The position numbers were made by a program, and so were the translations under genes. Under the pieces are notes generated by a model that saw nothing but the letters and a program-made list of their open reading frames with translations, had not been told where the DNA came from and ran no database searches. A DNA stretch of 64,000 bases from an uncultured Isoptericola sp. (GTDB lineage Bacteria; Actinomycetota; Actinomycetes; Actinomycetales; Cellulomonadaceae), in the NCBI GenBank assembly GCA_947497265.1, contig CANMFP010000001.1, positions 124,001-188,000 of the forward strand, given 5' to 3'. Shown piece by piece: positions 33,018-55,191 of the stretch (positions are counted from its first letter, which is position 1; each line of letters opens with the position of its first letter).

Positions 33018-33051
33018 TGTCTCTCCCGCCGAGCGGGAGCTGCCTCGCGCG

Positions 33052-33336
33052 TCAGTACGCGTTCGAGGTGTCCTCCTGCTGCGAGGCGTTGTTGTCCGCC
33101 GTGGTGGCGTAGCCGTCGAGCGCCGCGGCGATCTCGTTCAGCTTCGCGGCGTGCGTGCCGTCCCACTCCTCCTGGAACTGCACGGCGTCGGGGCCGTTCC
33201 ACTCGGTCTGACCCATCTGCGTGGTGATCGTCGTGACGCTCGTGCGGACGACCTCCGCCTGCTCGCGCAGGACGCCGGCCAGGCTCCGGACTGCCTCGAC
33301 ATCAAGACCGAAGACGTTGCCACCCTCTGCGACCAT
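33052..33336 (-). CDS. WXG100-family type VII secretion target (ESAT-6-like)
   Basis: A 94-residue protein with the family's typical length and layout: two helices separated by W-N-G (QTEWNGPDAVQFQEEWDGTH), N-terminal DVEAVRSLAGVLREQAEVV, and no signal peptide. Such proteins are secreted as helical-hairpin dimers by EccC/EssC machines. Strong Shine-Dalgarno (GAAGGAG, 6 nt before ATG). Flanked by hairpins on both sides, so it may be expressed as its own abundant transcript. The C-terminus lacks a clear YxxxD/E motif, though it ends near DTSNAY. Confidence 0.95.
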   Translation of the reverse strand: MVAEGGNVFGLDVEAVRSLAGVLREQAEVVRTSVTTITTQMGQTEWNGPDAVQFQEEWDGTHAAKLNEIAAALDGYATTADNNASQQEDTSNAY

Positions 33337-33428
33337 GTCATGCTCCTTCGTTCAGGGCCGTCCCGTGCAGGACAGCCGACTGTTGGCTTCGACGTCACAC
33401 ACTCAACCAGAGCGCGTGACGGCAGGGA

Positions 33429-33446
33429 ATGGGGAGCGCTCCCCAT
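33429..33446 (-). terminator. Palindrome between eccC and the WXG100 gene
   Basis: ATGGGGAGCGCTCCCCAT is a perfect 18-bp palindrome, with stem extension by flanking GGGA/TCCC. It lies 11-28 bp after the EccC stop on the minus strand. Probable terminator of the 22-kb operon. Confidence 0.65.
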
Positions 33447-33456
33447 CCCCGGGACG

Positions 33457-36400
33457 TCACCCCGGGAGGGCGACGTGGATCTTGGCGGCCCGGCCCGCGG
33501 TGATGAGAAACCCCCGCCCGGGCGGGAAGTCCTTGCGGCGGAGCCGACCCAGCGGGGTGTTCATCAGGACGTCCCCGTCCGTGTCACCCGGGGTGAGCAG
33601 GATGCCGTTGCGGCCGGACTTGAACGGCCCGGCCAGGGTGAAGGCCTTCGACCAGGTCGAGGTCTCCGACTCGCCGACCACGAGCTGCTCCTTGCGGACC
33701 GCGAGCTTGACGAACGCCTCGAGCGGCTTCTCGGCCGGTGTGCCCGTCAGCTCCGTGTAGTTCTCGACCATCACGGTCAGGCCGCCCGCCGGGTAGCGGT
33801 CCTCCTGGAGGTCGGCCGTGAGCTCCTTGAGGATCTCGACGACGTCCTCCGGGTTCGCCGCCTGCCGGTCCCACAGCTCCAGGGCACCGAGGCTGGTCCG
33901 ACGTGACGACAGGTAGACGAGGCGGGTCCGCCCGGCCCTTCGCAGCGTGGTCGCGAGGGTGACGAACGCCGTCGTGCGGCCCGACCCCGGCGGCCCCGCC
34001 AGCATGAAGGGCGACCGTGCCGGGAGCCCCACCGGCGCCATGTCGAGGTCGCGCAGGCCGATCGTCGCCTGGTCCCCGACGAACGGGGGCAGGGCGTCGA
34101 GCCCGAAGCTGTCGGGGAGCCGCGCCACGCCGGGCGCCTGCGCGGCGCCCATCCGTCGCATCGTCTGCTCCAGCCTCGCGAGCTCGCGCGACTGCACCGC
34201 CCCGTTCGACTCCCCACCGAGGACGGCGATCTGGGCCTCCTGGCCGTACATGATCGCCCGACCGGGGGCCGACGCGGGGTTGAGGACGTCGCGGGGGACG
34301 TTCAGCATCAGGTAGTCGTCCTCGCGCGCCAGGCGGTGCACGATGCGCTTCTGCACCGTGGAGTTCAGGGACGGCGGCACCGAGACGGCCCGGTCGCCCG
34401 ACATCACGAGGTGGATCCCCACCGGTCGTCCGTCCGTGGCGAGCTGGGTGAACGCCCCGAAGATCGAGAATCCTCGCACGGAGGACACCTCGTAGGAGTC
34501 GCGGAACGTGCCGATGCCGTCCACCAGCACGATGATCCGCGGCTCCTCGGGCCGGTCCGCGATCCGCCGGTACTCGTCGATGGTGCTGGCCCGCACCTCG
34601 GCGTACCGGGCGGACCGCTCGTCGAGCAGCCCGGTCAGCCGGCGCATCAGGCGGGTGATCCGCTCCTCGTCGTCACCGGAGATGACCGCACCGACATGCG
34701 GGAGGTTCTCCAGCATGGACAGCCCGCCGGACCCGCAGTCGATGCCGTAGACCTGCGTCGGGCCGCCGCGGGCGGTCAGGCCCGCCGAGACGGCGATGGT
34801 GCGCAGCGTCGTGCTCTTGCCCGTGCCGCCCGTGCCGTACACCGCCAGGTTGCCGTCGGTGTCGGGTTCGTAGTGGACCGTCGGCTGCGCCTGGGCGTGC
34901 GGGTCGTCGAGCACGCCCAGCAGCAGCCGGGAGTCGGTGCGGGGGTTGGGCAGGAGGGCCAGGTCGTAGGTCGCGGCCAGCTCCTCCAGCCATGGCTTGC
35001 GCGGCGCCGGCACCCCCGCGCTCGAGGCGGCCTGGCGGATGGTGGCGACCATCCGCGCGATGTCGTTCGGTCCGGGGTCGACGTCGTCCGACGTGTCGAG
35101 CGCGGGCATCTCCCAGCGCCGCCCCGTGCCGAAGTCCATCTCCTCGACCTCGACCTGGGTGTGCTGCGGCTCGTCGCTCGTCCAGCCGCCGGCATAGCCC
35201 GTCTGGAACGTCGTGATGCGGCCCGGCCCGGTCTTCGCCGCACCGCGGCCGGGGATCGACGGCGAGAAGTGCGCCGCCATCTCGTCCCCGAGCACGTCCT
35301 TGGAGTCGGACTCGTCGGCCATGCGCAGCGCGATACGCAGGTTGGTGTTCGCCCGCAGGTTGTCCTTGATGACGCCGGCGGGGCGCTGCGTGGCCAGGAT
35401 GAGGTGCAGCCCGAGCGAGCGCCCCCGCTGGGCGACGTCCACCACGCCGTCGACGAACTCGGGGACCTCTCCCACCAGCGCCGCGAACTCGTCGACCACG
35501 ATGATCAGGCTCGGTGGCGCCTCGGGGTCGCCGGTGCGCTCCAGGGAGGCGAGGTCCTTGGCCTTCTTCCGGTTGAGCAGGTGCTCGCGGTAGTGGAGCT
35601 CGGCACGCAGCGACGACAGCGCGCGCCGCACCAGGTGCGGCGAGAGGTCGGTGACCAGGCCGACCGTGTGCGGCAGGTCGACGCAGTCCGCGAAGGCCGC
35701 CCCGCCCTTGTAGTCGACGAACAGGAACGTCACGCGGTCGGGGCTGTGCGCCGCCGCCATCCCGAGCACCCAGGACTGCAGGAACTCCGACTTGCCGGCA
35801 CCGGTGGTCCCGCCCACGAGGGCGTGCGGCCCTTGGGTGCGCAGGTCGAGGTAGAACTCCTCGACGCCGTTGTGCCCGATGAGTGCACGCAGGTCGGTCG
35901 GGCTCTTGCGGCGTACCGGCGGGGACCCGTCGCGCGGCGTGAGCGACAGGTTCTCCCGCCACCGGTCCACCACCCCGGCCGCGTCCGATCCGAGGTCGGT
36001 CCCCACGAGCGCCAGGTAGGACACCGAGCGGGGCAGGTCGGACTCGTCCTCGACGGGCGCGCCGACGTCGACCACCGGGGACAGGATCCGGGCGACCTCG
36101 TAGGCCGTCGCCAGGTCGGCCGTCTCGTAGGTCACGGGGTAGGTCAGGCGGCCGTAGTGCACCTCGCCGGTCATCCCGCTCTCCTCGCGCGACTGCGGGT
36201 CGAGCAGGACGAAGGTGCGGCAGGCGGCGGGCAGCTGCTCCACCGTCGGGGCGACCCAGACGACGTGCACGTTCGCGGACGGGCCGCGCTCGGCGAGCCG
36301 GACGAGGCGCGACCGGTCGAGCGGTGCGTCGTCCTCGACGAGGACGACGACGGCGGGCAGGACGGGCTTCGGGGACCGCTCCTCGGCGTCCTTCTTCGGG

Positions 36401-37935
36401 TCCCGCTCGCCCTCGAACGGCGGCGGACCGTCGAGCACGACGCCGCGCGCCTCGATCAGTCCTTCGAGGCGGGTGAGGAGCGCCGTCCCCCGACCGGGGT
36501 CCGCGGCCAGGTGGTCGGAGGCGCCCAGAGGGCTGTGGGGCGACCCGGTGTGCGGGACCCACTGCAGCCACTCCCAGTCCTCGCGGGAGCGGTGCGAGGT
36601 GAGCGCGGTGACGACCATCTCCGCGGGCGAGTGCAGCGCCACGAGCTGCAGCAGGGCGGCCCGGGCGACGGACTCGACGACGCCGCTGGGTCCGGCCAGG
36701 CCGACGTTCCCGCCGTAGCGCAGCGCGGCGACGGTCGGGACGTCGTCGATCACCTCGCAGCGCGCCTTGAGGTCCAGCACCTTGTCCCAGTGCTCGGGGA
36801 TCGCCTCGTTCTCCCGAGGCTCGGTGAACTCGGTGCGTGCCGGAGCGCTGCCCGTCCCCAGCCGGAGCGTCAGGAACCCGCGGTGCTCGGGGCGGTGGGT
36901 CCACATCAGCCCGCCGAGCCGGCGCACGGCGTCGATCGCCTCCGTGAGGGAGGGGGCCTCGGCCCGGCGCACGGCCCGCTCGATCGCGTGGGTCCGCACG
37001 ATCCGTTCCCCGGTGGCCTCGACCGCCTCCTCGAACAGCCGTGACGCCTCGGCGAACTGCTTCTTCGCGTTCGTCTTCCGGTCGAGGTACATCGCGATCA
37101 TGATCAGCGGGCTCATGAACATGAAGATGAGCATCCGCGGGTTGTCGAAGATGACGAACATCGCGAGGCCCATGAGGGCCGGGACCATCATCGGCAGCCA
37201 GGGCAGGCGCCGGGGCGGCTCGGGCCGCGGCGGCTTCGGCGCGGCGATGTCGGTCTCGCCGAACCGGGCCACCACCCGTGGGGATCGGTTGAACTCCACC
37301 ACCGGGCTCGTCGGGGCCAGGCTGGTCGACCGGTGCAGGGAGACGACGGAGACGACGCTCCCGCCGACGGTCACGGTGTCGGACGACGTGAGCGCGGAAC
37401 GCGTCATCCGCTGGCCGCCCATCACGAGGCCGTTCGCCGAGTCGAGGTCGTGGACCTCCACCTGCTCGCCGATGATGATGCGCGCGTGCCGCTTGGAGAC
37501 CTGCGGGTCCTGGAGCCGGACGTCCATGTCGCGGTCCCGCCCCAGGTACGACGTGCCGACGGGCAGGTGGAACTCACGACCCGCGTCCGGGCCCTCCAGC
37601 ACGCGCAGCACGGCGACGGCGGCGCCGCGGTCCTGACCGGGGTGGACGAACTGCTCCGAGACGCGGACGATCGACACGGCCGAGCCCGACCGCAGCCCCG
37701 CCTGGACGATGTCGCTGGTCGGGGTGAGCACCCGGCCCGCGGAGACGTTGCGCTGCGCCGAGCCGTCGCCGAGGATCTGCAGCGTGAGGTTGTCCGGTGC
37801 CGGTGCCCCGTTGCGGGTGGGGTCGGCCGTGAACAGCACCTCGGCCACGTCGCGGACGCTCGCGGTGGCGTCCGCGGTGACGGCCACGTTGACGGCCGAC
37901 TCGTCCGGCCGGCTCAGGGTCAGCTTGATGCGCAC
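33457..37935 (-). CDS. eccC: EccC/EssC-type FtsK/SpoIIIE ATPase with ubiquitin-like and FHA N-terminus
   Basis: Motor of a type VII secretion system, 1492 residues. Residues 1-90 (MRIKLTLSRPDESAVNVAV...) resemble the YukD/EsaB ubiquitin-like fold; ~105-195 form an FHA domain (YLGRDRDMDVRLQDPQVSKRHARI...DLDSANG); ~240-282 two membrane helices; then three FtsK-like ATPase domains with P-loops GGTTGAGKSE (~708), GTGGTGKST (~1035) and GPPGSGRTT (~1315). The first ATPase has Walker B-like SLIIVVDEFAAL. An N-terminal FHA is found in EssC of Firmicutes rather than mycobacterial EccC. GTG start. No EccB, EccD, EccE or mycosin gene is in the window. Confidence 0.95.
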   Translation of the reverse strand: MRIKLTLSRPDESAVNVAVTADATASVRDVAEVLFTADPTRNGAPAPDNLTLQILGDGSAQRNVSAGRVLTPTSDIVQAGLRSGSAVSIVRVSEQFVHPGQDRGAAVAVLRVLEGPDAGREFHLPVGTSYLGRDRDMDVRLQDPQVSKRHARIIIGEQVEVHDLDSANGLVMGGQRMTRSALTSSDTVTVGGSVVSVVSLHRSTSLAPTSPVVEFNRSPRVVARFGETDIAAPKPPRPEPPRRLPWLPMMVPALMGLAMFVIFDNPRMLIFMFMSPLIMIAMYLDRKTNAKKQFAEASRLFEEAVEATGERIVRTHAIERAVRRAEAPSLTEAIDAVRRLGGLMWTHRPEHRGFLTLRLGTGSAPARTEFTEPRENEAIPEHWDKVLDLKARCEVIDDVPTVAALRYGGNVGLAGPSGVVESVARAALLQLVALHSPAEMVVTALTSHRSREDWEWLQWVPHTGSPHSPLGASDHLAADPGRGTALLTRLEGLIEARGVVLDGPPPFEGERDPKKDAEERSPKPVLPAVVVLVEDDAPLDRSRLVRLAERGPSANVHVVWVAPTVEQLPAACRTFVLLDPQSREESGMTGEVHYGRLTYPVTYETADLATAYEVARILSPVVDVGAPVEDESDLPRSVSYLALVGTDLGSDAAGVVDRWRENLSLTPRDGSPPVRRKSPTDLRALIGHNGVEEFYLDLRTQGPHALVGGTTGAGKSEFLQSWVLGMAAAHSPDRVTFLFVDYKGGAAFADCVDLPHTVGLVTDLSPHLVRRALSSLRAELHYREHLLNRKKAKDLASLERTGDPEAPPSLIIVVDEFAALVGEVPEFVDGVVDVAQRGRSLGLHLILATQRPAGVIKDNLRANTNLRIALRMADESDSKDVLGDEMAAHFSPSIPGRGAAKTGPGRITTFQTGYAGGWTSDEPQHTQVEVEEMDFGTGRRWEMPALDTSDDVDPGPNDIARMVATIRQAASSAGVPAPRKPWLEELAATYDLALLPNPRTDSRLLLGVLDDPHAQAQPTVHYEPDTDGNLAVYGTGGTGKSTTLRTIAVSAGLTARGGPTQVYGIDCGSGGLSMLENLPHVGAVISGDDEERITRLMRRLTGLLDERSARYAEVRASTIDEYRRIADRPEEPRIIVLVDGIGTFRDSYEVSSVRGFSIFGAFTQLATDGRPVGIHLVMSGDRAVSVPPSLNSTVQKRIVHRLAREDDYLMLNVPRDVLNPASAPGRAIMYGQEAQIAVLGGESNGAVQSRELARLEQTMRRMGAAQAPGVARLPDSFGLDALPPFVGDQATIGLRDLDMAPVGLPARSPFMLAGPPGSGRTTAFVTLATTLRRAGRTRLVYLSSRRTSLGALELWDRQAANPEDVVEILKELTADLQEDRYPAGGLTVMVENYTELTGTPAEKPLEAFVKLAVRKEQLVVGESETSTWSKAFTLAGPFKSGRNGILLTPGDTDGDVLMNTPLGRLRRKDFPPGRGFLITAGRAAKIHVALPG

Positions 37936-37936
37936 G

Positions 37937-38632
37937 TCAGGCGTCGTCCTTCAGGTCGAGGAGGGGGAGGTCGTCAGCGGTCACGAGCCGGGAGGTGACG
38001 GCGTGCTCGACGAGGCGCGCCCGGCGGTTGGTCGCAGCCCCGCCCGGGCCGCCGCGCAGGCCTCGGACGCCGATGCGGTCGAGCTTGTCGCAGACGTTGT
38101 CGAGCTTGCGGTTGAACCGCGTCGTCGCCCAGCCGAGGCGCCGTGCCGCGTCCGCGCTGGACGGGATCTCGCTGAGCCCCGTGCCCTCACGGCGCAGCAT
38201 CGGCTCGGCGAGCGCCACGATGAGCTGCTTCTGGCTGACGGTGAACCGGACGGCGCCGATGGTGGTGGCACCGGTCGAGGACTCCTCGGTGCCGATCTCG
38301 TAGTAGGGAGCGTCCCGCAGGGAGGCGGTCAGCTCGTACGTGGTGGGACCCGCGGTGAAGACCACCGACGTCGTGGGGAACACGACTGGCAGCCGGTTCC
38401 CGGGCGGCAGCCAGGACTGCACGCCGCCCCGCAGGTCGCAGACGGTGGCCGCGACGGCCGAGCCGATGTTGCTCAGCCACCAGATGCCCTCCTCGCTGGT
38501 GAATCGCAGGAACCGACGGTGCAGGTAGAGGTTGTCGTCGATCGCCAGGTCGCCCTCGCGGCCGATGTCGAACGGCTCGCCCGGGTCCGGGTGGAACCAC
38601 TCACCGCAGAACTCGATCGCCAGCTCGCCCAT
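37937..38632 (-). CDS. FHA-like protein with C-terminal helical (HTH-like) domain
   Basis: A 231-residue soluble protein. The N-terminal half has an FHA-like beta pattern (EPFDIGREGDLAIDDNLYLHRRFLRF...GIWWLSNIG) with the GRE and H-R segments of phosphothreonine-binding loops. The C-terminal part (EIPSSADAARRLGWATTRFNRKLDNVCDKL) resembles a winged-helix or HTH. It is encoded 1 nt before eccC and after the kinase. It may report phosphorylation state to the secretion ATPase or to transcription; function not established. Confidence 0.78.
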   Translation of the reverse strand: MGELAIEFCGEWFHPDPGEPFDIGREGDLAIDDNLYLHRRFLRFTSEEGIWWLSNIGSAVAATVCDLRGGVQSWLPPGNRLPVVFPTTSVVFTAGPTTYELTASLRDAPYYEIGTEESSTGATTIGAVRFTVSQKQLIVALAEPMLRREGTGLSEIPSSADAARRLGWATTRFNRKLDNVCDKLDRIGVRGLRGGPGGAATNRRARLVEHAVTSRLVTADDLPLLDLKDDA

Positions 38633-38651
38633 CTGTCCCCCTTCCTGTCGC

Positions 38652-40298
38652 TCAGGCCTCGTCCGCGCACACCTGCGTCACGTCGGACGGCTTGCTGTCC
38701 CGCACCACGACGACCTCGACGCAGACGTTCTGGTCCGGGTCGTCGGGCACCCGCACGGTGGTCTCGTCGGTCTCCTCGTACCGCGACTCGGAGGTCAGGG
38801 AGAGCTGCCGCCAGCCGTAGACGTCACCCTCGTGCGCCTCGCGCGGCGGCTCCCAGGTCACCACGACCTCGTCACCGTCGACCGCGACGTCCAGCTCGCG
38901 GACAGGTGGGACGTAGCCGCCGAGCGGTGCGACCGGGTCCACGGCGGTCGCCTCGGCGCTGGGGCCGGCCTCCGGCGACGTCCCGGAGCCCGAGACCAGC
39001 CACCAGACCACGCCGCCGACGACGAGGAGCCCGGCCGCGCCGCCGACCAGCGGCCACCACGAGGTCGAGCGGGTCGCGGCGCCGTCGTCGGCGTCTTCGC
39101 CGGTGTCCGACGACGGCGCCTGGGTCCGGTGCACCGTCTCGTCGACGGGGACACCGGCCCACTCCTGGCCGGTGCCGACCGTGGGGACGAACCCGGGACC
39201 GGGCGCCCCGGGCCCGTTGCCGGGTGCGCCGACCAGCGGCACGGACGCTCCGCCGGTGGACGGTGCCTGCGGGCTCGCGGCCGATCCCCAGGAGCCGGGG
39301 GACCCCGCCGATGCCGCAGACCCGGCCGACCCGGCCGACGGCAGCCCCTGGCCGGGGTCGATGGCGGTGATGCGGTTCATCCGCGTGCCGTCGGCCGCGT
39401 CGTCCTCCTCCGCGTGCACAGAGCCGGACTCGTCGAGGATGTCGATCGGCGTCATGTCGCGCGCCAGCTCGACCTGGACCTGCTGCAGCGCACGGGCGAA
39501 GGCCAGCGCGGTCGGGTATCGCGAGCCCGGCTGCTTGGCCATCGCGATCCGCAGCACCCGCTCGAGCGAGTCCGGGACGTCCCCACGGCCCGTGCCCGGT
39601 AGCGGCGCGGTCGCGATGCGGCTCATGAGGTCCGCCGAGGCGTTCGACCCGCCGGGCACCTCGAACGGGGTGCGGCCGGCGAGCAGCGTGTAGCAGGTGG
39701 CACCGAGCGCCCAGACGTCGGTGGCGATCCCGCTGACCGGCGGGTCGCCGAACGACTCGGGCGGCGACCACGGGATGGACATGCCCTCCGCGACGGACAC
39801 CGAGTCCACCGTGGAGGAGATGCCGAAGTCGGTCAGCGCGGGGTGGCCGAACTGGGTCACCAGGATGTTGGCCGGCTTGATGTCCCGGTGCAGGATGCCG
39901 AGCCGGTGCGCCGTCTCCACCGCGCCGGCGATCTGGATCGTGGTCCGCATCGCCTCCGCGACGGAGAACCGCTCGGTGCGGTAGCGCGACCCGAGGTTCG
40001 GGCGGGAGCAGTGCTCCATCGCCAGGTAGGGGCGGTTGTCCGGCGTCACCCCCGCCTCGAACATCGTGACGATCGACGGGTGGTTGCCGAGCGTCGCCAT
40101 GAGGTCCGCCTCGGCGTCGAAGGCGGCTCGCTGGGCGTCGCTCGACCACTCCTTGAGGAGCACCTTCACCGCGACCGGGCGCCGGGGCCGGCGCTGCTCG
40201 TACAGGAAGACGTCGGAGAACCCGCCGGAACCGATCAGCTTGCGGAACTCGTACCCGGGGATCTCGGGAGGCGCCGAGGGGGCGCGCTTGCTGCTCAT
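38652..40298 (-). CDS. Transmembrane Ser/Thr protein kinase (PknB-like)
   Basis: Receptor kinase, 548 residues. Kinase domain ~15-275: Gly loop LIGSGGFSDVFLYE, catalytic Lys in AVKVLL, HRDIKPANIL, DFGISS and the P+1 segment SIPWSPPE. A long Ser/Gly/Pro-rich juxtamembrane linker follows, one membrane helix at ~415-437 (WPLVGGAAGLLVVGGVVWWLV) and an extracellular ~100-residue FN3-like domain (PPVRELDVAVDGDEVVVTWEPP). It lacks PASTA repeats, so the signal is not muropeptide of the usual type. Corresponds to the kinase of the PFNA cluster; likely substrates are the FHA proteins around it. Confidence 0.95.
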   Translation of the reverse strand: MSSKRAPSAPPEIPGYEFRKLIGSGGFSDVFLYEQRRPRRPVAVKVLLKEWSSDAQRAAFDAEADLMATLGNHPSIVTMFEAGVTPDNRPYLAMEHCSRPNLGSRYRTERFSVAEAMRTTIQIAGAVETAHRLGILHRDIKPANILVTQFGHPALTDFGISSTVDSVSVAEGMSIPWSPPESFGDPPVSGIATDVWALGATCYTLLAGRTPFEVPGGSNASADLMSRIATAPLPGTGRGDVPDSLERVLRIAMAKQPGSRYPTALAFARALQQVQVELARDMTPIDILDESGSVHAEEDDAADGTRMNRITAIDPGQGLPSAGSAGSAASAGSPGSWGSAASPQAPSTGGASVPLVGAPGNGPGAPGPGFVPTVGTGQEWAGVPVDETVHRTQAPSSDTGEDADDGAATRSTSWWPLVGGAAGLLVVGGVVWWLVSGSGTSPEAGPSAEATAVDPVAPLGGYVPPVRELDVAVDGDEVVVTWEPPREAHEGDVYGWRQLSLTSESRYEETDETTVRVPDDPDQNVCVEVVVVRDSKPSDVTQVCADEA

Positions 40299-40308
40299 GC
40301 GCCCGCCC

Positions 40309-42015: not shown

Positions 42016-42857
42016 GCGTCCTCCAGTCCTTGCTCCCGCGCGGGCCACGCCCCGGTCGGCACCGTGTCCTCGTCCGGCGCGAAGGCGCCGCGCGGGGTGG
42101 TCGTCGTCCCTTCCGTGCCGTCCGCGGCGCTCGCGACGTCCACCACGATCACGGTGATGTTGTCGCGTCCGCCGGCCGCGATCGCCTCGTCGACGAGCCT
42201 GCCCGCCGCCTCCTGCGGGTCCGGGTGCTCGAGGAGGAGCTGGGCGATCCGCTCGTCGGTGAGCTCGAGGGTGAGCCCGTCCGAGCACACCAGCAGCCGA
42301 TCATCCACCACGACCGGGACGTACCGGAAGTCAGGGCTCGGCGTGTCGTCGGCTCCGAGCGCCCGGGTCACCACGTTGCGACGCGGGTGCTCGCGCGCCT
42401 CCTCCTCCGTGAGCAGGCCGGCGTCGACGAGCTGCTGGACCTCCGAATGGTCCACGCTCACCTGGTCCAGCGTCCCCGCGGACATCAGGTAGGTCCGCGA
42501 GTCGCCGACGTTGACGAACAGCCAGTAGGGCACGTCGTCCTGGTAGGCGACGACGGCGCCGGTCAGGGTGGTCCCCGCACCCCGTCCGCCCGGACCGGTC
42601 TCGATGCCGCGCACCCGCTCCTGCGCCGCCGCGACCAGGTCGACCACGACGTCCGGGTCGATGCGCGCGACGTCCCGCAGAGGGCTCAGCGCCTCGAGCG
42701 CGAAGGCGCTGGCGACCTCGCCCGCGTCGTGCCCGCCCATGCCGTCCGCCACGAGGAAGACCCCGTCGCCCGCGAGGAACCCGTCCTCGTTGACGCGGCG
42801 TCGGCGGCCCTCGTGAGTCGCCGCTCCCCAGCTCAGCACCAGCTCGGCGGCGCTCAT
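42012..42857 (-). CDS. PP2C-family Ser/Thr protein phosphatase
   Basis: A 281-residue metal-dependent phosphatase. Motifs: RRRVNEDGFL, VADGMGGHDAGE (metal-binding Asp and Gly), AGTTLTGAV, NVGDSRTYL, LLVCSDGLT and GGRDNITVIVVD. Soluble, no membrane segment. It would reverse the action of the kinase at 38652. Overlaps both neighbours by 4 bp (ATGA), which implies balanced synthesis of kinase, reader and phosphatase. Confidence 0.96.
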   Translation of the reverse strand: MSAAELVLSWGAATHEGRRRRVNEDGFLAGDGVFLVADGMGGHDAGEVASAFALEALSPLRDVARIDPDVVVDLVAAAQERVRGIETGPGGRGAGTTLTGAVVAYQDDVPYWLFVNVGDSRTYLMSAGTLDQVSVDHSEVQQLVDAGLLTEEEAREHPRRNVVTRALGADDTPSPDFRYVPVVVDDRLLVCSDGLTLELTDERIAQLLLEHPDPQEAAGRLVDEAIAAGGRDNITVIVVDVASAADGTEGTTTTPRGAFAPDEDTVPTGAWPAREQGLEDA

Positions 42858-44437: not shown

Positions 44438-44446
44438 CGATTCTCC

Positions 44447-46837: not shown

Positions 46838-48120
46838 GCCTCGCTCATCTTCTTCAGGGCGAGCGGCAGGTCGCCGAGCCGACCGAGGGCCAGCACGCCG
46901 ACCTCGCCGATCGAGTGGCGGGACAGGCTGACGCCCGGCACGCACTGGATCGCCATCACCGTCACACCGACGGGCAGCCGCGCGGACGCGACCCGCAGCT
47001 CGGTCGGCGTGACCTTGCTGCCGACGACGAACGCGATCACCGACGCGCTCGCGGAGCTCGACCCGACACCCCGGGCGAGGTCCACCAGCTTGCTGTGGGA
47101 GTGGACGGGTTCGACCCGGGACAGGTCGTCGAGGAGCCGCGTGTGGTGGTCGCCGCGGAGGCTGCCCGTGTGCACGAGCACCGTCACCCCCCGGTCCTCC
47201 TTGATGGCCTGCAGGCCGAGCGACCCGCACACGGAGACCGCGAGCTCGAACTCCTCGTCGTCGGCGTAGTCCTGCGCGCGCGTGGAGAGCAGCACGGCCA
47301 GGTGGGAACGCCGCGTCTCCTCGAACTGGCGGACCATGAGCGTGCCCGTGCGTGCCGTCGTCTTCCAGTGGATGTGGCGCAGGTCGTCGCCCGGCGCGTA
47401 CTCGCGCAGCGCGTGGAACGAGATGTCCGAGTCGGTGAGGTCGGTGGTCGCACGCCCCTCGAGGTCGCGGAGCAGACCGGTCGAGGAGCTCGCGAGGTTC
47501 TTCACCGCCGGGTGCACGTACAGCTCCTGGGAGTCCGTCCAGGTGACCTCACGGCGCAGGAGCCCGAGCGGGTCGGCGCGCACGGACTTCACGGGACCGA
47601 CCGTGATGACGCTGCGGCGCCGGGTCGGGACGCGGAAGATCTCCTCGTGGGTGCCGCCGCCTCGCATGCGGGGCACGGGGAAGGCTGCGGTGCCGCGGCC
47701 GACCGGCAGCTCCATCACCGACGGCAGCAGGGGCCGGGACGCGGCGTTGCGGACGTCGAGGCGGCCGACGGCAGGGTCTCCGACGGTCACCCGCGACTGC
47801 GTCAGGGTCAGGGTGACGTCGTACCGCAGCCGGCCCAGCACGAACACGATCGCCGCCACGAGGGCGACCGTGAGCACGATCGCCACCACCAGCACCTCGA
47901 GCCAGCCGAGCACGAGGCCGGTGACCCAGGCCCCCGCCGCGACGACCAGCGCCGCGATCCCGAAGCTGCTGAACGCGCCCGTCACGGGGGCGCACACCGT
48001 GACCAGCGTGGACCACGCGCCGCGCAGCGACGCGACGGCCGTCACCCACCAGGCTCCGGTGCGCAGTCTCGACGCCGCGATTCGTGAGGGTCGCGCTCGC
48101 CCTGTGCTCGGGGCCGTCAT
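46834..48120 (-). CDS. DUF58 domain-containing protein
   Basis: A 428-residue protein with two N-terminal hydrophobic segments (~45-95), a beta-rich middle (RRSVITVGPVKSVRADPLGLLRRE) and the DUF58 signature SDISFHALREYAPGDDLRHIHWKTTARTGTLMVRQFEE, which resembles a von Willebrand A-type fold. DUF58 proteins almost always accompany MoxR ATPases, as here. It is coupled to MoxR and to the transglutaminase-like gene by 4-bp overlaps. A metal-dependent assembly or chaperone role is inferred from the family. Confidence 0.93.
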   Translation of the reverse strand: MTAPSTGRARPSRIAASRLRTGAWWVTAVASLRGAWSTLVTVCAPVTGAFSSFGIAALVVAAGAWVTGLVLGWLEVLVVAIVLTVALVAAIVFVLGRLRYDVTLTLTQSRVTVGDPAVGRLDVRNAASRPLLPSVMELPVGRGTAAFPVPRMRGGGTHEEIFRVPTRRRSVITVGPVKSVRADPLGLLRREVTWTDSQELYVHPAVKNLASSSTGLLRDLEGRATTDLTDSDISFHALREYAPGDDLRHIHWKTTARTGTLMVRQFEETRRSHLAVLLSTRAQDYADDEEFELAVSVCGSLGLQAIKEDRGVTVLVHTGSLRGDHHTRLLDDLSRVEPVHSHSKLVDLARGVGSSSASASVIAFVVGSKVTPTELRVASARLPVGVTVMAIQCVPGVSLSRHSIGEVGVLALGRLGDLPLALKKMSEA

Positions 48121-49091
48121 ACGCCGGCGCGCTCCTGCGGTGCCGCCACGTCCGCCATGATGCGGGCCAGGACGATGTCTGCGCGGGCACCCGTGAACTC
48201 CGCCTCGGCGTCGAGCACGAACCGGTGCGCCCACACGGGCTGCGCGAGCTGCTTGACGTCGTCGGGCAGCACGTAGTTGCGGCCGTGCGCCGCAGCCCAG
48301 ACCTTGCAGCAGCGCACCAGGGCCAGGGCTCCACGGACCGAGACACCGATCCGCGCCTCGGGGGCGTTGCGGGTCTCCTCCGCCAGGCGGCTGATGTACT
48401 CCAGGACCGCCTGGTCGGTGTGGACCGTGGCGGCGAGGTCGGCCATGTCAGCGACCGCCTTGGTCGTGATGATCGGCTGCAGGGCCGCGCTGCGGTCACG
48501 CGTCGCCGCTCCGGACAGGATCTCCACCGTGGAGGCGTGGTCCGGGTAGCCGACCGACGTCTTCATGAGGAACCGGTCGAGCTGCGCCTCGGGCAGCCGG
48601 TACGTACCGGCCTGCTCGATCGGGTTCTGCGTGGCGATCACCATGAACGGGCGGCCGACGTCGTGGGCGGCGCCGTCGACCGTGACGCGACCCTCCTCCA
48701 TGACCTCCAGAAGCGCCGACTGCGTCTTCGGCGAGGCACGGTTGATCTCGTCCGCGAGGACGATGGACGCGAAGATCGGGCCGGGCCGGAAGTCGAACGT
48801 GCCCGTCTTCTGGTCGTAGATCATCACGCCGGTCACGTCGGAGGGCAGCAGATCCGGGGTGAACTGGATGCGGTTCTGCGTGCCCTGGACCGAGGCGGCG
48901 ATGGCACGGGCCATCGCCGTCTTGCCCGTCCCCGGCGCGTCCTCGAGGAGCAGGTGGCCCTCGGCCAGCATGCAGGTGAGGGCCAGGCGCACCACGGGCG
49001 CCTTGCCCAGCACGGCCAGGCCGACGTTGCCGCTGAGGCGGTCGAACGTCTGGGCGAACCAGGCCGCCTGCTCGGGAGTCATCGTGCTCAT
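48117..49091 (-). CDS. MoxR-family AAA+ ATPase
   Basis: A 324-residue AAA+ chaperone-like ATPase. Walker A EDAPGTGKTAMA, Walker B VLADEINRASPKTQSALLEVMEE, sensor 1 VIATQNPIE and sensor 2 GVSVRGALALVRC are present. MoxR ATPases act with DUF58/VWA partners in maturation of envelope or metal-dependent complexes. It lies 25 bp after the giant FN3 gene and overlaps DUF58 by 4 bp. Equivalent of aaa-atp in the PFNA cluster. Confidence 0.95.
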   Translation of the reverse strand: MSTMTPEQAAWFAQTFDRLSGNVGLAVLGKAPVVRLALTCMLAEGHLLLEDAPGTGKTAMARAIAASVQGTQNRIQFTPDLLPSDVTGVMIYDQKTGTFDFRPGPIFASIVLADEINRASPKTQSALLEVMEEGRVTVDGAAHDVGRPFMVIATQNPIEQAGTYRLPEAQLDRFLMKTSVGYPDHASTVEILSGAATRDRSAALQPIITTKAVADMADLAATVHTDQAVLEYISRLAEETRNAPEARIGVSVRGALALVRCCKVWAAAHGRNYVLPDDVKQLAQPVWAHRFVLDAEAEFTGARADIVLARIMADVAAPQERAGV

Positions 49092-49116
49092 GCGTAGTTC
49101 CTCTTCCGTGACATGC

Positions 49117-52100
49117 CTAGTTGGTCCGCCAGAACGTCTTCTCGTAGTGCTTGCCGTTGATCACGACCCACACGTTGTGCCCGCGGTACTGCGGCGCGGC
49201 CGCGCCGATGTAGCAGAACAGCTCGAACGTGCCGTTCGCCGGGACGTTGACCGAGTAGGACGACGTCCCGTAGAGCTTGTGGGCACCGCCGTCGTCCGTC
49301 CAGCACTCCACCGACTGCCGGCCGGTGTCCTGGAAGTCGTGGGTGGTGACCCGGAACTTCGCACACGTACCGTCGGAGCAGTTGGTGTTGTTGACCGACG
49401 CACCGCGCGAGACGACGGCGCGGGGGTTCGGTGGTGCGTCAGTGGTGTAGCTGGCGCTCCCCCACGCCCCGCACCCGGCCTCGTTGCAGGCCCTGGCACG
49501 CAGCGTGTATGTCGTGCTGAACGCCTTGGGCGTGTCCTTCGTGAAGGACCAGCTCGTCGCCCTGCCGCTGCCCGACGCACCGCGGGTGTACTCCCACTCG
49601 ATGCGCTGGATCGTCCGGCCACCGTTGCTGCTCGGCGCCGAGACGTGGAACCGGCCCTGGTTGTCGGCGAGCTTGCTCGTCGAGATCCCCGGGCTGCCGG
49701 GCGTCGTGTAGGGCGTCACCGAGCCGGAGGCCGTCGACCAGGCCGAGCAGGCGTACTGGTTGCACGCCTGCACCTGGAACGTGTACGCGGTGCCGTTGCT
49801 CAGGCCGGTGAACGCATGGCTGGTCGAGTTCCCGGCGTTCTGCACCGCGCCGCCGCTGGCACGCACCCGGTAGTACGGGCCGGGGCCACGGAAGTCCGCC
49901 GACGCGGACCAGCTCACGTTCGCGCGGCCGCTGGTGTTGCTGCCCAGGCTCGCCGAGACGTTCGAGGGCACCACCGGCGTGCCGTACGGCACCACCGCGT
50001 TCGAGGCCGCGCTCTTCTCCGACGTGCCGGCCTTGTTCTCGGCCGACACGACGAAGGTGTAGGAGGACGTCGGCTTGAGGTTCTGGATCGTCTGCGAGGT
50101 CGTGGTGCCCGCCACCTCGATGGTGCGTGCCGTCGAGCCGTTCTCGATGACGTCGAGTTCGTACGACTTGATGGCGTCACCGTTGGTGTTCGGCTGGTCC
50201 CAGCTCACCGTCGTCTGACCGCCCACAGCGGTGTCCACGCGGGTCGCGGTAGGTGCCCCGGGCTTGAAGGGCGGGCCCGCCGGGGTCTCCGCCGCCGACA
50301 TCTCCGACCAGTCGGAAGGGTCCGGGGCAGCGTTGATCGCCTGCACCCGCACCGTGTAGGCCGTGCCGTTGGTCAGCCCGTCCCACTCGACGGTGGTGGC
50401 CGTGAGGCACGACTTCTGGATCCGCCCGTCGGTGGGTGCCGGGCTGATCTCCAGGTTGACGCACTCGATCGGCGACCGGTCGGTGTACGTGCGGTTCTTC
50501 CACGTGACCGTCAGGGACCCGTCGCCGAACTCCAGGCTCGGCGGCTCCGGCTGGTCCGGCTTCTCGTCCGGCCGAGCCTCCGCCGAGGCCGGCGACTCCT
50601 CCGACTCGCCCACCTCGTTGGTGGCGGCCACGGTGAACGTGTACGTCACGTTGTTCGCCAGGCCGCCGAACGTGCAGGTCGTCGTCGTGCACTCGGTCGA
50701 CTGACCGTCGTTGGTGCGCAGGGTGTAGCCGGTGATCTCCGCACCGTTGTTGTTCGGCTGCTCCCAGCTCAGCACCACCGTCTCGGAGCGCACCTCCTCG
50801 ACCACCGGGGCGCGGGGTGCCTCGGGCCGGCCGAGGACGGTGACCGTCAACGTCCCGTCGACCTGCCGGTCCGGGTCCTCGGTGACGTCCTGCACCGTGT
50901 AGCGCACGGTAAGCACGCCGTGGAAGTTCTCGCCGGGGGTCACGACGACCGCGGAGTCGTCGAACGACACCTCGCCGTCCCCCGTCTCGCCGTAGGCACC
51001 GACGATGGTCAGCGCCTCCTCGGGGAACGGGTTCGTGTCGTTGTCGAGCACCGGGACGCGGACCTGGACACCCTGGTGGGCGTCCGGGACCTCGTCCGGC
51101 GACGTCTGGGCGAGCGGTCTCGTGGAGCCCACGACGGTCACGGCGAGATCCCCGCTCACGGGCGGGTTCTTCCCGTCGGAGACGGTGAACGACAGGCTCG
51201 TCGACGTGCCCTTCGGCACGGACGGCTCGACCTGCGCCGTGACGGTCCCACCGGTGACGGCGGTGGTGATCCCGTCACCGCCGGACACCTCGAAGGTGAG
51301 GGCGTCGCCGTCCGGGTCCTCCACGTACCGGGCCAGGTCGACCGTCGCGTCCTCACCGGCTGCGACCTCGAGCGCCGGTGAGCCGACGATCTCCGGCGGG
51401 AGGTTCTCGGACGGGACGACGTCGATGGGCAGGGTGAGGACCGCCGTCAGTCCGTCCGCGTCGTCCGGCCCGTCGCCGTCCGTCACCTCGAAGCTGACCG
51501 ACGCCGCCCCGGCGTAGTCCTCGGCCGAGGTGTAGACGAACGTGTCGGCGTCCTCGACCGAGACGGTCCCCTGGGCCGTCTGGACCGACTTCTCCTCCGT
51601 GATGCGGGGCTCACGGCCGTCACGCACCACCACGTACTCCGCGAGATCGATCGTCAGCGGCTCACCGCTGGTCGTCTGCACCGGGTCCATGCCCGGCTGG
51701 AGGTACGGCCGCGCCTGGTCGCCGGGCACCCGCACGAAGGCCTTGGCCTGCAGCCCGTCGATGTCGGTGACCGTGTAGGTGATGACGCGAGCGTCCGCGG
51801 CGAGCGCCACGGAGATCTGTCCGTCCTCCGTGACCTCGACCCCCTCGAGTCCTTCGTCCACCGTCACCGTGAGGTCGGCACCGACGCCGTCCGGGTCGAC
51901 GTCGTTGGCCAGCACGTCGACGGTGACCGACGCGGAGCCCTGCACCTGGTCCGCGGTCACGACGTCGTCGGCCGCGACCGGACGCAGCAGGGGTGCTTCG
52001 TCGTCGACGACCAGGCTGATCGCGCCGGTGGCCCGCGCCTTGAAGTCGTCCTGGACCGTGTAATAGAAGGAATAGGTCCCCTCGGCGTCGGGTGCGGACA

Positions 52101-55100
52101 GGACGACGTCCTCGTCCACCGCCTCCGGCTCGATCCCGTCGGGCATCCCCTCGAAGCCGTCCACGACCAAGCCGATCTCGTCGCCGTCGGGGTCGGAGTC
52201 GTTCTGGAGCGCGCGCACCGCCACGGTCCGTCCAGGCCGCACGGTGGTCTCGTCGTCCACCACCTGCGGCGACTGGTTGGTCGACGGCGGGGCGGACACA
52301 CCGATGCGGATCGCCCCTTGCCCGACGGCGCCACGGGTGTCCGTGACCTCGTAGGTCATCGTGTCGAACCCGGTCGCGCCCTTGGCCGCCTGGTAGTCGA
52401 TGTAGCCGTCCACGATCGCGGCCGTGCCCTTGCCGGGCGCCTTCGAGATCGAGCTCAGGACGACGTGGTCACCGTCCGGGTCGGTCCCGTCGAGCGGCAG
52501 CGCGATGCGGACCGTCCGGCCGCTGAGCACCCGGGCCTCGGTGTCCGGGACCTGCGGCGCCGCGTTGTCCTCGTCGCCCTGGATGGTGACGGTCACCTGG
52601 GCGGAGTCCTTCTGGTCGTTGCTGTCGACCACCTCGTACACGAGGTGGGCCGTGCCCGCTTCGGAGCCGGCGCGGAACCGCACCGTGTCCTCGGAGACGA
52701 AGGCCTCGCCGAGGGCGGCGTCCGGCTCCTCCTGGAGCTCGTCGTTGAGCACGAGGTCGAGCCCGTCGGGGTGGCTGTCGTTCTCCAGGACGGGGATCGT
52801 CACCACGTCGCCGGTGTGGACGAGCACCTCGTCCGGTGCGGCCTCCGGCGGACGCAGCACGTCCGGCGCGGGGATCGGGACCACGCGCACCTCCCCCGTC
52901 GTGGAGCCCGAGGCGTTCGCCACCGTGTACTCGAACGTAACCGGCTCGTCGAGCCGCTTGGTCTCGGTCACCTTGAGCACGTGGTGGTTGAGCACGCTGA
53001 CGTCGACCGGGGCGTCGTCGGGGACCTCCACGGAGGGGACGACGAGCACGCCGCCGGCCGGGTCGGTGTCGTTCGCCAGCACGTCGAGCAGCGCGCTGCC
53101 GTTGGTGGGCAGCAGCACCTGGTCGGACACCGCGACCGGTGCCGAGTCCGTGTCCGGCGGGGCGATGACGTCCACCCGCACCAGACCGATGGTCGAGTTC
53201 GGGCCGTCGCTGATCTGGTAGGTGACGTCGTAGGAGCCCGGCTCGTCACCCTGCGCGGTGAAGGTGCCGGCCGCGAGGTTCTGCGTGATCGCGACGCCGT
53301 CCTTCTCGGCGACGTGGACCAGGCGCACCGAGTCGCCGTTCGGGTCGTGATCGTTCGTCAAGGGCGAGACCGTGACCGGCTGTCCGGACAGCACCGTGAC
53401 GTGGTCCTGCACGGCGATGGGCGGCACGTTGGTGGCGACGACGTCGACCAGGAGACGGCCCTCGAACGGGCGTCCGGCCGAGTCGGAGACGGTCACGTCG
53501 ACGATCTTGCGGCCGGTGGCGCCACCGCCGTCGCGGAACTCGACGGTGCCGTCCGGGCGGAACCGGATGTCGTCGTTCGGGTCGGCCGTTCCGGCGTGCG
53601 ACAGGAAGAGGTCGTCCCCGTCCGGGTCCTCGAAGTACGGCAGGATCTTGATCGTGCCGGTACCGCTCTGGCCTACCTGCAGCACGGGCTCACCGGTCTG
53701 CACCGGTGCCTCGTTCTCGGACGTCGGGACCACCCGCACGGTGACGGACGCCGTGTCCGTGCCCTTCGGGCGGCCGTCGTCGACCTGGTAGGTGAACTTG
53801 ACCTTCCCGGTCGCGTCCGCGGGCACGTCCACCTGGAGCGCGGCACCGTCGAGGACCTGGTCGACGGTCAGGTCGCCCTCGGGGGGCGAGTCGACCGACA
53901 CCGTCATCACGTCGCCGTCCGGGTCGACGTCGTTGCGCAGCACGTCGAGCACGGTCGTGCGCCCCGGTCGGACGCCGAACGAGTCGTCGGCCGCGATGGG
54001 CGGCTTGTTCTTCGCCTCGCGGTCCGCGACGAACTGGTCCACCTGCTCGGGGATCGTCTCCTCGGACTCGGCCTCCTCGCCCTCGGCGTCCTCCGGGATG
54101 GTGAGCTCCCAGTCGTCGACCTTCTGGAAGTCCTCGGCCGCCATCCACACCGTGCCGTTGACCATGTCGTTCAGCACGATGACGTCCCGGTTCACCCGAT
54201 AGGCGAGCGCGGTGGTGTCGTCGATGCCCTCGAGCACCATGTCCTCGTCGTGGTCGACTCCCGGGCAGTCACGGATCACCTGGCCCGAGATCGACCACGC
54301 GCCATAGGTGCAGCCACCGAGCTGGACCGGGCGGGCCGGCGTGCCGTTGGCCGACCGGGTGGTGGCGTCACCGCCGTCGAGCGGCTGGTAGACGAGGCCC
54401 CTCGAGGTGGCCAGCACCACGACGTCGGCGTCGGCCGATCCCTGCTGGAGCTGCGCCTCGGCGCCCCCGTCGACCTCGACCGTGTCCCCGCCGGGCAGCA
54501 CGAGGTGGCCGGTGGACCGGTCGAGCACCACGACGTCGTCGCCGACCGTGGTGAGCTGGACCTCTGCCTCGCCGTGGACCGGCAGCCGATCCTCGCTGTG
54601 ACCGGCCGCGGTGCCCTGGGCGGCGGTCTCGATCGTGTACAGGGCGCTGTCGGAGGGGACGGCGACGAACACCGTGCCGTCCTCGGCCACGGTCGCTGCG
54701 CCGCCCGTGCCGACCTCGAGGTCCGGGTCGAGCTCGTTCTCGTCGAACCCGACGCTGCCGTCGAACGGGAGCACCCAGACCCGTCCGTGCTCGGCGTCGT
54801 GGACCACCGTCGTCGAGCCGCCGGTGACGACCTCGGCACCGGCAGGGAACTTCATCGTCCCGCGCAGTGCGAGCTGTGCCGGGTCCACCGGGCTCGCGGA
54901 CGAGTCCCCGTCGCTCTCCAGGAGCACCCGCTGCGCGTTCTGCTGCACGTCGAAGCTGACGGAGTTCGCGAGCAGTGTGCCGTCGAGCGCCTGCGCCTCG
55001 TGGTTGAAGCGGCCGAGCGTCCCCGTGGAGGTCTGCGTGACCCAGACGCCGGAGTCGTTCAGGTCGATGTCCGCCGTCGCCTCACCCTCGTACCAGAGCG

Positions 55101-55191
55101 CGAACCCGGCGAGACCGGCGCCGAAGAGTGCGACGACGCCCGCGGACGCGACGGACCGGCGGTTCTCGAGGACGCGTGAGACGAGGCTCAT
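49117..55191 (-). CDS. Giant Ig-like/FN3 cell-surface protein
   Basis: A 2024-residue envelope protein. One N-terminal membrane helix (~15-35, VASAGVVALFGAGLAGFALWY) acts as an uncleaved anchor. Residues ~45-440 are a beta-propeller-like region (repeated VxVLPFDGS, TVFVAVP, VVVLDRSTG); ~470-1440 contain about ten cadherin/tandem-95-like Ig repeats with NDxDPDGD or DPDGD motifs that bind calcium in other proteins; ~1460-1920 about five FN3 domains; the last ~100 residues hold four Cys and end EKTFWRTN. No LPxTG sorting signal. It begins the 22-kb operon and corresponds to fn3 of the PFNA cluster. Adhesive or scaffold function is likely. Confidence 0.92.
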   Translation of the reverse strand: MSLVSRVLENRRSVASAGVVALFGAGLAGFALWYEGEATADIDLNDSGVWVTQTSTGTLGRFNHEAQALDGTLLANSVSFDVQQNAQRVLLESDGDSSASPVDPAQLALRGTMKFPAGAEVVTGGSTTVVHDAEHGRVWVLPFDGSVGFDENELDPDLEVGTGGAATVAEDGTVFVAVPSDSALYTIETAAQGTAAGHSEDRLPVHGEAEVQLTTVGDDVVVLDRSTGHLVLPGGDTVEVDGGAEAQLQQGSADADVVVLATSRGLVYQPLDGGDATTRSANGTPARPVQLGGCTYGAWSISGQVIRDCPGVDHDEDMVLEGIDDTTALAYRVNRDVIVLNDMVNGTVWMAAEDFQKVDDWELTIPEDAEGEEAESEETIPEQVDQFVADREAKNKPPIAADDSFGVRPGRTTVLDVLRNDVDPDGDVMTVSVDSPPEGDLTVDQVLDGAALQVDVPADATGKVKFTYQVDDGRPKGTDTASVTVRVVPTSENEAPVQTGEPVLQVGQSGTGTIKILPYFEDPDGDDLFLSHAGTADPNDDIRFRPDGTVEFRDGGGATGRKIVDVTVSDSAGRPFEGRLLVDVVATNVPPIAVQDHVTVLSGQPVTVSPLTNDHDPNGDSVRLVHVAEKDGVAITQNLAAGTFTAQGDEPGSYDVTYQISDGPNSTIGLVRVDVIAPPDTDSAPVAVSDQVLLPTNGSALLDVLANDTDPAGGVLVVPSVEVPDDAPVDVSVLNHHVLKVTETKRLDEPVTFEYTVANASGSTTGEVRVVPIPAPDVLRPPEAAPDEVLVHTGDVVTIPVLENDSHPDGLDLVLNDELQEEPDAALGEAFVSEDTVRFRAGSEAGTAHLVYEVVDSNDQKDSAQVTVTIQGDEDNAAPQVPDTEARVLSGRTVRIALPLDGTDPDGDHVVLSSISKAPGKGTAAIVDGYIDYQAAKGATGFDTMTYEVTDTRGAVGQGAIRIGVSAPPSTNQSPQVVDDETTVRPGRTVAVRALQNDSDPDGDEIGLVVDGFEGMPDGIEPEAVDEDVVLSAPDAEGTYSFYYTVQDDFKARATGAISLVVDDEAPLLRPVAADDVVTADQVQGSASVTVDVLANDVDPDGVGADLTVTVDEGLEGVEVTEDGQISVALAADARVITYTVTDIDGLQAKAFVRVPGDQARPYLQPGMDPVQTTSGEPLTIDLAEYVVVRDGREPRITEEKSVQTAQGTVSVEDADTFVYTSAEDYAGAASVSFEVTDGDGPDDADGLTAVLTLPIDVVPSENLPPEIVGSPALEVAAGEDATVDLARYVEDPDGDALTFEVSGGDGITTAVTGGTVTAQVEPSVPKGTSTSLSFTVSDGKNPPVSGDLAVTVVGSTRPLAQTSPDEVPDAHQGVQVRVPVLDNDTNPFPEEALTIVGAYGETGDGEVSFDDSAVVVTPGENFHGVLTVRYTVQDVTEDPDRQVDGTLTVTVLGRPEAPRAPVVEEVRSETVVLSWEQPNNNGAEITGYTLRTNDGQSTECTTTTCTFGGLANNVTYTFTVAATNEVGESEESPASAEARPDEKPDQPEPPSLEFGDGSLTVTWKNRTYTDRSPIECVNLEISPAPTDGRIQKSCLTATTVEWDGLTNGTAYTVRVQAINAAPDPSDWSEMSAAETPAGPPFKPGAPTATRVDTAVGGQTTVSWDQPNTNGDAIKSYELDVIENGSTARTIEVAGTTTSQTIQNLKPTSSYTFVVSAENKAGTSEKSAASNAVVPYGTPVVPSNVSASLGSNTSGRANVSWSASADFRGPGPYYRVRASGGAVQNAGNSTSHAFTGLSNGTAYTFQVQACNQYACSAWSTASGSVTPYTTPGSPGISTSKLADNQGRFHVSAPSSNGGRTIQRIEWEYTRGASGSGRATSWSFTKDTPKAFSTTYTLRARACNEAGCGAWGSASYTTDAPPNPRAVVSRGASVNNTNCSDGTCAKFRVTTHDFQDTGRQSVECWTDDGGAHKLYGTSSYSVNVPANGTFELFCYIGAAAPQYRGHNVWVVINGKHYEKTFWRTN

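Follow-up and report, generated by a model that had tools for sequence, protein, structure and literature searches.

Does a set of genes for a serine/threonine kinase, a PP2C phosphatase and several FHA-domain proteins control the type VII secretion motor encoded next to it, or does it serve only the envelope proteins of the same operon? The question is raised by a locus of a soil-type actinobacterium, an uncultured Isoptericola sp. (assembly GCA_947497265.1, contig CANMFP010000001.1), studied in a window of 64,000 nucleotides (contig positions 124,001 to 188,000) from whose first letter all coordinates are counted. A first-pass annotation had described eleven same-strand genes between 33052 and 55191, and open reading frame (ORF) coordinates and Pfam confirm these genes and their domains on the minus strand. 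The lower boundary has to be moved, however, since four further same-strand genes continue to 29735, and the full unit comprises 15 genes over 25.5 kb (29735-55191, minus strand). The locus is real and conserved, a type VII variant whose logic has in part been published. Its best explanation, with chances that we judge about even, is a two-module phospho-gated type VII locus in which an envelope and control module (the surface protein SURF, MoxR, DUF58, a TgpA-like protein, RDD-FHA, PP2C, Zn-FHA, the kinase and FHA-wHTH) would cooperate with a type VII-like motor-cargo cassette (EccC, WXG100, the longer protein WXGL and accessories). The best supported of the new points are the 15-gene unit, the separability of the modules with apparent motor-cargo swapping, a modelled ubiquitin-fold domain on the motor and a cysteine-less transglutaminase-like protein.

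The motor (33457..37935, minus strand, as are all genes of the unit) carries FtsK/AAA domains and an FHA domain in Pfam, and its best NCBIfam match is EssC TIGR03928 (E 6e-157, 524 bits, under the cut-off of 778), with EccC second and the DNA translocase FtsK at 54 bits. These matches, together with EccC and YukB entries in the PDB, place it in the EccC/EssC family and uphold the earlier description of an FHA-bearing motor of this kind accompanied by WXG100-like protein(s). Its layout starts with a modelled ubiquitin fold (residues 1-98), followed by the FHA domain (106-199), in which the phosphothreonine-binding residues are retained, by two transmembrane (TM) segments at about 244-284 and by the FtsK/AAA ATPase domains. 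Foldseek and VIA searches with residues 1-205 had FHA folds among the matches listed, and for this reason residues 1-98 were modelled separately; the model would give the N-terminus a ubiquitin-fold domain in front of a GarA-like FHA domain. The N-termini of several other FHA-bearing EccC proteins look ubiquitin-like by eye. A free-standing EsaB/YukD (PF08817) gives no match in the genome at E 1, the four controls being positive and one of them over the cut-off, and YukC/EssB (PF10140) has no match in the genome, with a positive B. subtilis control. The first-pass annotation had seen no EccB, EccD, EccE or mycosin. For EccB (PF05108) this extends to the whole genome, which has no match to a profile that is positive for 20 of 79 genomes of the class; for EccE and mycosin no search was made.

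Downstream of the motor lies a 94-aa WXG100-like gene (33052..33336) with a WNG motif, and related genes stand downstream of EccC in relatives. It is followed by WXGL (31712..32917, 397-401 aa), which joins an N-terminal WXG100-like domain through a Gly-rich linker to a Gly/Ala/Val-rich C-terminal domain; its Pfam matches are weak (EspA_EspE 0.011, WXG100_2 0.023), and it is a candidate substrate. Longer proteins with a WXG100-like N-terminus also occur 3' of EccC elsewhere (L025, L029, L044, L088, L089, L094, L099), and the cargo of the relatives includes WXG100 and T7SS_signal types. These named loci come from a scan that retained the best 80 of at least 585 loci and leans to close relatives; their genes were called by our own codon-composition caller, and the counts of upstream and downstream gene content are therefore lower bounds. 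Where 2.5 kb of downstream sequence is present, 51 of 67 loci show a WXG100-type, small-partner or toxin-type gene. Toxin-type cargo genes accompanied by small helical partners neighbour the motor in L060, L061 and loci like them; the C-terminus of the L060 cargo resembles an alpha/beta hydrolase. Elsewhere in the genome, a lone strong WXG100 gene (L001, G000:C9:11021-11275, E 5e-18) is a possible extra substrate. The unit ends with three accessory genes: a small protein of the LpqN/DcrB family (31203..31679, Pfam Lpp-LpqN 1e-16), whose cluster has 11 members across 11 loci, window included; a 258-aa protein with two N-terminal segments in the TM scan (30430..31206) and relatives in L025, L044 and L099; and, last of all, a putative lipoprotein of 219 aa (29735..30394, ALTAC by eye) with a relative in L044.

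On the other side of the motor are the parts of a phosphorylation circuit. The kinase (38652..40298, Pfam Pkinase 7e-38) has one predicted TM segment at residues 417-435 and a C-terminus predicted to lie outside; HRD and DFG are kept in 50 of 50 relatives. For the PP2C phosphatase (42012..42857, Pfam 1e-9) the four motifs are kept in 40, 46, 31 and 44 of 46 relatives, so that the kinase and phosphatase of the first-pass annotation both retain their signatures. The candidate readers, of which it had counted at least three, are three FHA domains by Pfam and one FHA-like domain by eye. Besides that of the motor, they include the C-terminal FHA domain (8e-7) of an RDD membrane protein (42854..44437, RDD 3e-20, zinc ribbon by eye) and that of Zn-FHA (40309..42015), which consists of an N-terminal domain, a linker, a zinc ribbon seen by eye and the C-terminal FHA domain. 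The fourth is FHA-wHTH (37937..38632, 231 aa), which by eye has an FHA-like N-terminus and a winged-helix-like C-terminus and has no match in Pfam or NCBIfam.

The Zn-FHA linker is proline-rich and poorly conserved, and it contains the motif DHDGxT. Its Thr378 (DHDGHT, codon 40882..40884) is found in every one of the 41 aligned proteins, DHDG being present in 98 %, and Thr278 (HLFGDTV..EDAAVR, codon 41182..41184) is conserved in 83 %. The pattern [DEH]T[IVM] occurs 44 times, and 10.6 ± 3.3 times in shuffles, while a serine control is also raised (27 versus 13.8 ± 3.5), and an excess over shuffles is expected of any conserved motif. Thr378 is a good phospho-acceptor candidate for the control module.

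The same genes recur together well beyond Isoptericola. The order DUF58-TgpA-RDD/FHA-PP2C-ZnFHA-kinase-FHAwHTH-EccC is kept on one strand in relatives, some genes being too divergent to cluster, in Cellulosimicrobium, Myceligenerans, Arthrobacter, Microbacterium, Herbiconiux, Dietzia, Nocardioides, Actinomyces and others; MoxR and SURF are also in conserved order wherever the sequence reaches, and since the order is conserved it is not due to chance. The full set of TgpA, PP2C, kinase and FHA-wHTH is found in 43 of the 66 loci with 9.9 kb of upstream sequence; nine others have TgpA without FHA-wHTH, among them a short form SURF-MoxR-DUF58-TgpA-EccC. Linkage was counted in 248 genomes drawn evenly from the order, kinship being ignored, with motors of the window clade defined by at least 1154 bits (the next lower score is about 850) and FHA-wHTH as marker of the kinase module. 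Such motors occur in 72 of these genomes and the marker in 97; in the 60 genomes that hold both, 38 pairs are adjacent and 11 more lie within 25 kb (49 in total). Related blocks are widespread in Actinomycetota, and a draw from the phylum gave motors of at least 1290 bits in 8 of 346 genomes. The module can also stand by itself. Among the marker surroundings examined in 16 of the 37 motor-less genomes and in four unlinked ones, the kinase is present in 17 of 20, SURF and MoxR in 15 of 20 and a motor of the window clade in none of the 20.

Motor and control module have not always travelled together either. In 45 loci, the identity matrix of the motor broadly matches the one computed from joined TgpA, FHA-wHTH, kinase and PP2C sequences (r 0.92), and the clearest exceptions are loci with toxin-type cargo. 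A rule assigns such cargo to seven of the 45 (L062, L063, L066, L084, L091, L096, L101). On the motor tree the cargo label needs two changes (shuffled mean 6.6, 0/500 as low) versus six on the control-module tree, where 159 of 500 shuffles are as low; cargo type therefore goes with the motor. Six of the seven toxin-cargo motors form one group with a Shimodaira-Hasegawa-like approximate likelihood-ratio support (SH-aLRT) of 100, a group that excludes L062 and that the control-module data reject in the approximately unbiased (AU) test (3e-9). Conversely, the motor data reject a group of the window, L044 and L096 (AU p 8e-63) as well as a seven-row group of Promicromonosporaceae and Luteimicrobium (2e-80); apart from the set of seven, the tested groups were picked after the identities had been seen, and their p values are indicative. 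For the Promicromonospora locus L096, identity with the window amounts to 70 % over the control module and 46 % over the motor. EccC proteins of other kinds stand near FHA-wHTH in G096 (about 4 kb away) and G258 (adjacent). On these comparisons, motor plus cargo looks like a swappable plug-in.

The envelope part is dominated by SURF (49117..55191, 2024 aa), which has a membrane anchor at residues 14-32, an N-terminal part of about 480 aa, tandem Big_9/cadherin-like domains and then FN3 domains; a hydropathy scan predicts no C-terminal TM segment. Twelve orthologues align end to end; over the first ~1700 residues most stretches of 100 positions hold 0-4 gaps and none more than 14, and the last 300 residues vary most (mean identity 15-27 %). 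The N-terminal part is found in 139 of the 248 order genomes, and 116 of the 150 open frames listed measure 1900-2250 aa (median 2070). Since length is fixed and the end varies, SURF would be a stalk with a recognition tip rather than a repeat-number adhesin. Next to it are the MoxR AAA+ ATPase (48117..49091, Pfam AAA_3 8e-62), the DUF58 protein with two predicted TM segments (46834..48120) and the TgpA-type transglutaminase-like membrane protein (44447..46837, Pfam TgpA_N and Transglut_core). In the latter the catalytic cysteine is absent from 59 of 59 aligned sequences, the column holding D, E, S or Q, and residues 527-533 of the window protein read GDDEQFA. The TgpA of structure 6g49, which we take to be that of P. 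aeruginosa, aligns GFC at this position, and the other transglutaminase-family protein of the genome, an internal control, has GYC. "Transglutaminase" should thus not be assumed to mean a protein cross-linker here, nor in the PFNA-like loci L152, L153 and L156, which have GDS, with serine for cysteine, despite the name transglutaminase given to the protein in the PFNA literature.

In the mechanism that we propose, the membrane kinase would sense an envelope or contact signal and phosphorylate threonines of the Zn-FHA linker, Thr378 being the best candidate, and PP2C would remove these marks. The FHA domains, that of the motor included, would read the mark, so that gating or recruitment of the motor might depend on an active envelope module. 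MoxR, DUF58 and the cysteine-less TgpA-like protein may help to fold or place SURF, which would span the wall as an Ig/FN3 stalk of fixed length whose variable tip meets the target. The fused ubiquitin-fold domain might stand in for a separate YukD or EccD, and the motor would export the WXG100 pair.

Parts of this scheme have precedents. The T7SSd subtype (Garrett, Higginson and Palmer 2024, PMC11217815), as described in its main text, combines an FHA-bearing EssC-like motor, WXG100, a transmembrane kinase and an Ig surface protein, and is reported without a ubiquitin-like protein; its authors already raise control by threonine phosphorylation and a conduit role of the surface protein. The first-pass annotation had read the locus as type VI-like threonine control applied to a type VII-like machine. 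The parts are indeed there, with motifs and FHA residues kept, but kinase/phosphatase/FHA type VII subtypes, one of them having an Ig-type surface protein, and the type VI analogy are both already published in that paper. The other precedent is the PFNA operon of Bifidobacterium (PMC8430577, PMC6803598), which in the available text has 5-8 genes and no motor or WXG100. All five kinds of gene in the PFNA set occur in the window, as had been claimed, and PP2C and FHA are shared as well, but the fixed order pkb2, fn3, aaa-atp, duf58, tgm does not recur, the kinase coming after the other four. For its leading genes, the published order is seen as kinase-SURF-MoxR-DUF58-TgpA in L152, L153 and L156, of a family (f4) that we infer to be the Bifidobacteriaceae. 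Homologous modules also occur in several families beyond that of Bifidobacterium, contrary to the statement of the 2019 PFNA paper that orthologues had not been found in other organisms. No literature joining type VII secretion with MoxR and a transglutaminase was found in a search that left most subscription journals outside, a combination with MoxR and DUF58 gave one mycobacterial paper, unrelated by its listing, and the term T7SSd was met in a single paper; the words MoxR, DUF58, transglutaminase, fibronectin and RDD are absent from the main text of PMC11217815. With T7SSb (EssC/YukB) the locus shares FHA and two TM segments on the motor, WXG100 and a ubiquitin-like component, but it differs in having no YukC/EssB match, a single FHA plus the modelled ubiquitin-fold fusion and a kinase that keeps its catalytic motifs. 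T7SSa (ESX) shares the EccC-type motor and, in EccD, a ubiquitin-fold domain like the one modelled here, but its EccB is absent from the window genome and the motor here carries FHA. In the threonine phosphorylation pathway of type VI secretion, a kinase, a PP2C phosphatase and an FHA reader stand beside a secretion machine; that machinery is not homologous, and substrate and reader at the window locus are predictions.

Several observations weigh against cooperation of the two modules or against its single steps. The window WXG100 protein scores under the family cut-offs (Pfam 5e-4, NCBIfam 4e-5), and adjacency of cargo is not universal, because in 13 of the 67 loci eccC is followed by ligA and the next 2.5 kb contain no WXG100-type gene. 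In the ubiquitin-fold match list, talin, SUMO-like and other domains score level with those of type VII systems. The L062 motor lies outside the swapped group, and all seven toxin-cargo motors as one clade are rejected (p-AU 1e-6). None of the four control genes is seen in 10 of the 66 loci with 9.9 kb upstream, and 12 of the 72 motors are in genomes without FHA-wHTH. The first-pass annotation had counted common separation of eccC from the kinase-FN3-MoxR part against its reading, and such separation is partly found: the linkage holds in 49 of the 60 genomes, motor and marker are unlinked or on another contig in 11, and 37 of the 97 marker genomes have no motor of the window clade, so that the block has a role without it. 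In a wider pattern check DHDGxT was present in 7 of 13 regions with the motor versus 11 of 20 without (of these 20, four belong to genomes that have the motor at another place and two contain a different kind of EccC), and in 2 of 6 other regions, one with serine; being about as common without the motor, Thr378 is no evidence for the motor as reader and was dropped as a pointer to it. The marker genomes without such a motor and the persistence of the motif, like the motor-less L152, L153 and L156, would suit an envelope-only role, in which kinase, phosphatase and FHA proteins serve the SURF-MoxR-DUF58-TgpA set and the motor is an operon neighbour outside phospho-regulation. According to the available text, PFNA has been proposed to act in adhesion or wall sensing, and its kinase Pkb2 is reported to phosphorylate the MoxR of its operon (PMC8430577). 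We nevertheless consider this role rather unlikely, as the two parts lie within 25 kb in most genomes that have both, the junction is preserved despite differing motors, and the motor itself bears an FHA domain of the phosphothreonine-binding type.

The similarities to T7SSd (Actinomycetota, FHA motor, a WXG100 here below cut-off, a Ser/Thr kinase at the locus and a large Ig-type protein) could also mean that the locus is simply a T7SSd member with extra genes, those beyond the published main-text description being MoxR, DUF58, TgpA-like, PP2C, RDD-FHA, Zn-FHA and FHA-wHTH. This is improbable. TsdI is described with a signal peptide and a C-terminal TM segment, whereas the one TM segment predicted for SURF is N-terminal, and none of the 15 genes looks like the small single-TM TsdH in the TM scan, save the putative lipoprotein, no profile search having been made. 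L154 and L155 are T7SSd-like loci, and L154 (family f4) fits the description with a kinase, a TsdH-like single-TM protein of 147 aa, a 1523-aa motor, an FHA protein and a 1798-aa Ig protein with TM segments at both ends. Its motor is 32 % identical to that of the window in global alignment and falls in a separate group of a quick tree (FastTree, local support 100 each), so that the window motor probably belongs to another clade, as far as this one locus can stand for T7SSd. By BLASTP the L154 surface protein does not match SURF significantly (best E 0.36), and the window MoxR, DUF58 and TgpA have no tblastn match within the 20 kb examined. Simple membership was rejected on these comparisons. 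Separately, the small L154 protein ends in acidic threonine motifs (DDDEQQTSLIG), and the N-terminus of the L154 motor looks ubiquitin-like by eye. The low WXG100 score and the ligA loci might even suggest a DNA translocase or other FtsK-type pump beside an incidental WXG100-like gene, but this is very improbable in view of the EssC and FtsK bit scores (524 against 54), the two TM segments in front of the FtsK/AAA domains, the WXG100 and T7SS_signal cargo of the relatives and the presence in the genome of another FtsK-domain ORF (815 aa), which is probably FtsK itself.

More broadly, and with somewhat less than even confidence, the two-module locus may represent a widespread actinobacterial chassis-and-cartridge subtype of type VII secretion, with a vertically inherited phospho/wall module (SURF stalk, MoxR/DUF58 and the cysteine-less transglutaminase-like protein), a swapped motor-cargo part and a motor-fused ubiquitin-like domain, PFNA being a chassis free of cartridge. 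The locus links the PFNA operon, which has been investigated as a receptor for host signals, to new type VII subtypes, and if the modules cooperate, kinase control of a type VII motor would be directly testable in harmless soil actinobacteria. By analogy, a fusion to the motor, modelled for the window clade only, is a candidate answer to the ubiquitin-like protein missing from T7SSd; a ubiquitin fold on T7SSd motor N-termini, if true, would explain the missing TsxB generally.

The limits of the unit follow from its flanks, where we take the neighbouring genes to be RarD, YajQ, HtpX and FNR. RarD and YajQ are neighbours in 8 of 10 fetched same-genus regions (L148, without a RarD match, was scored as not adjacent), and in the window the block occupies the space between them; the unit is therefore 29735-55191 with 15 genes. 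Two of the eight adjacent regions (G042, G058) have no motor of the window clade, no FHA-wHTH and no SURF, and in G021 the block likewise stands beside YajQ. Other EccC-like matches (35-51 % identical; L144, L145, L146) lie beyond HtpX in same-genus genomes, and the area around HtpX/YajQ may be an insertion hot spot. By ORF coordinates, 4-bp overlaps join MoxR/DUF58, DUF58/TgpA, RDD-FHA/PP2C, PP2C/Zn-FHA and LpqN/258-aa gene; the remaining junctions are gaps of 1-35 bp, save 120 bp between EccC and WXG and about 134 bp between WXG and the next gene. No promoter was found in a scan of 29000-34000; of two terminator-like sites, one lies within eccC. Two ARAGORN calls, tRNA-Met (30864-30961, 98 bases) and tRNA-Arg (40936-41029, 94 bases), are of odd length, lie inside genes on the other strand and are probably false, and a phage-defence reading was dropped, as the PADLOC matches, PD-T4-6 and mad8 among them, seem to be of a generic kinase/ATPase kind. 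Elsewhere in the window, a presumed polyketide-synthase-like ORF beside a prenyltransferase-like membrane protein (60481-63418) may form a small biosynthetic cluster, and the genes at 21811-24920 read, as we take them, like siderophore biosynthesis.

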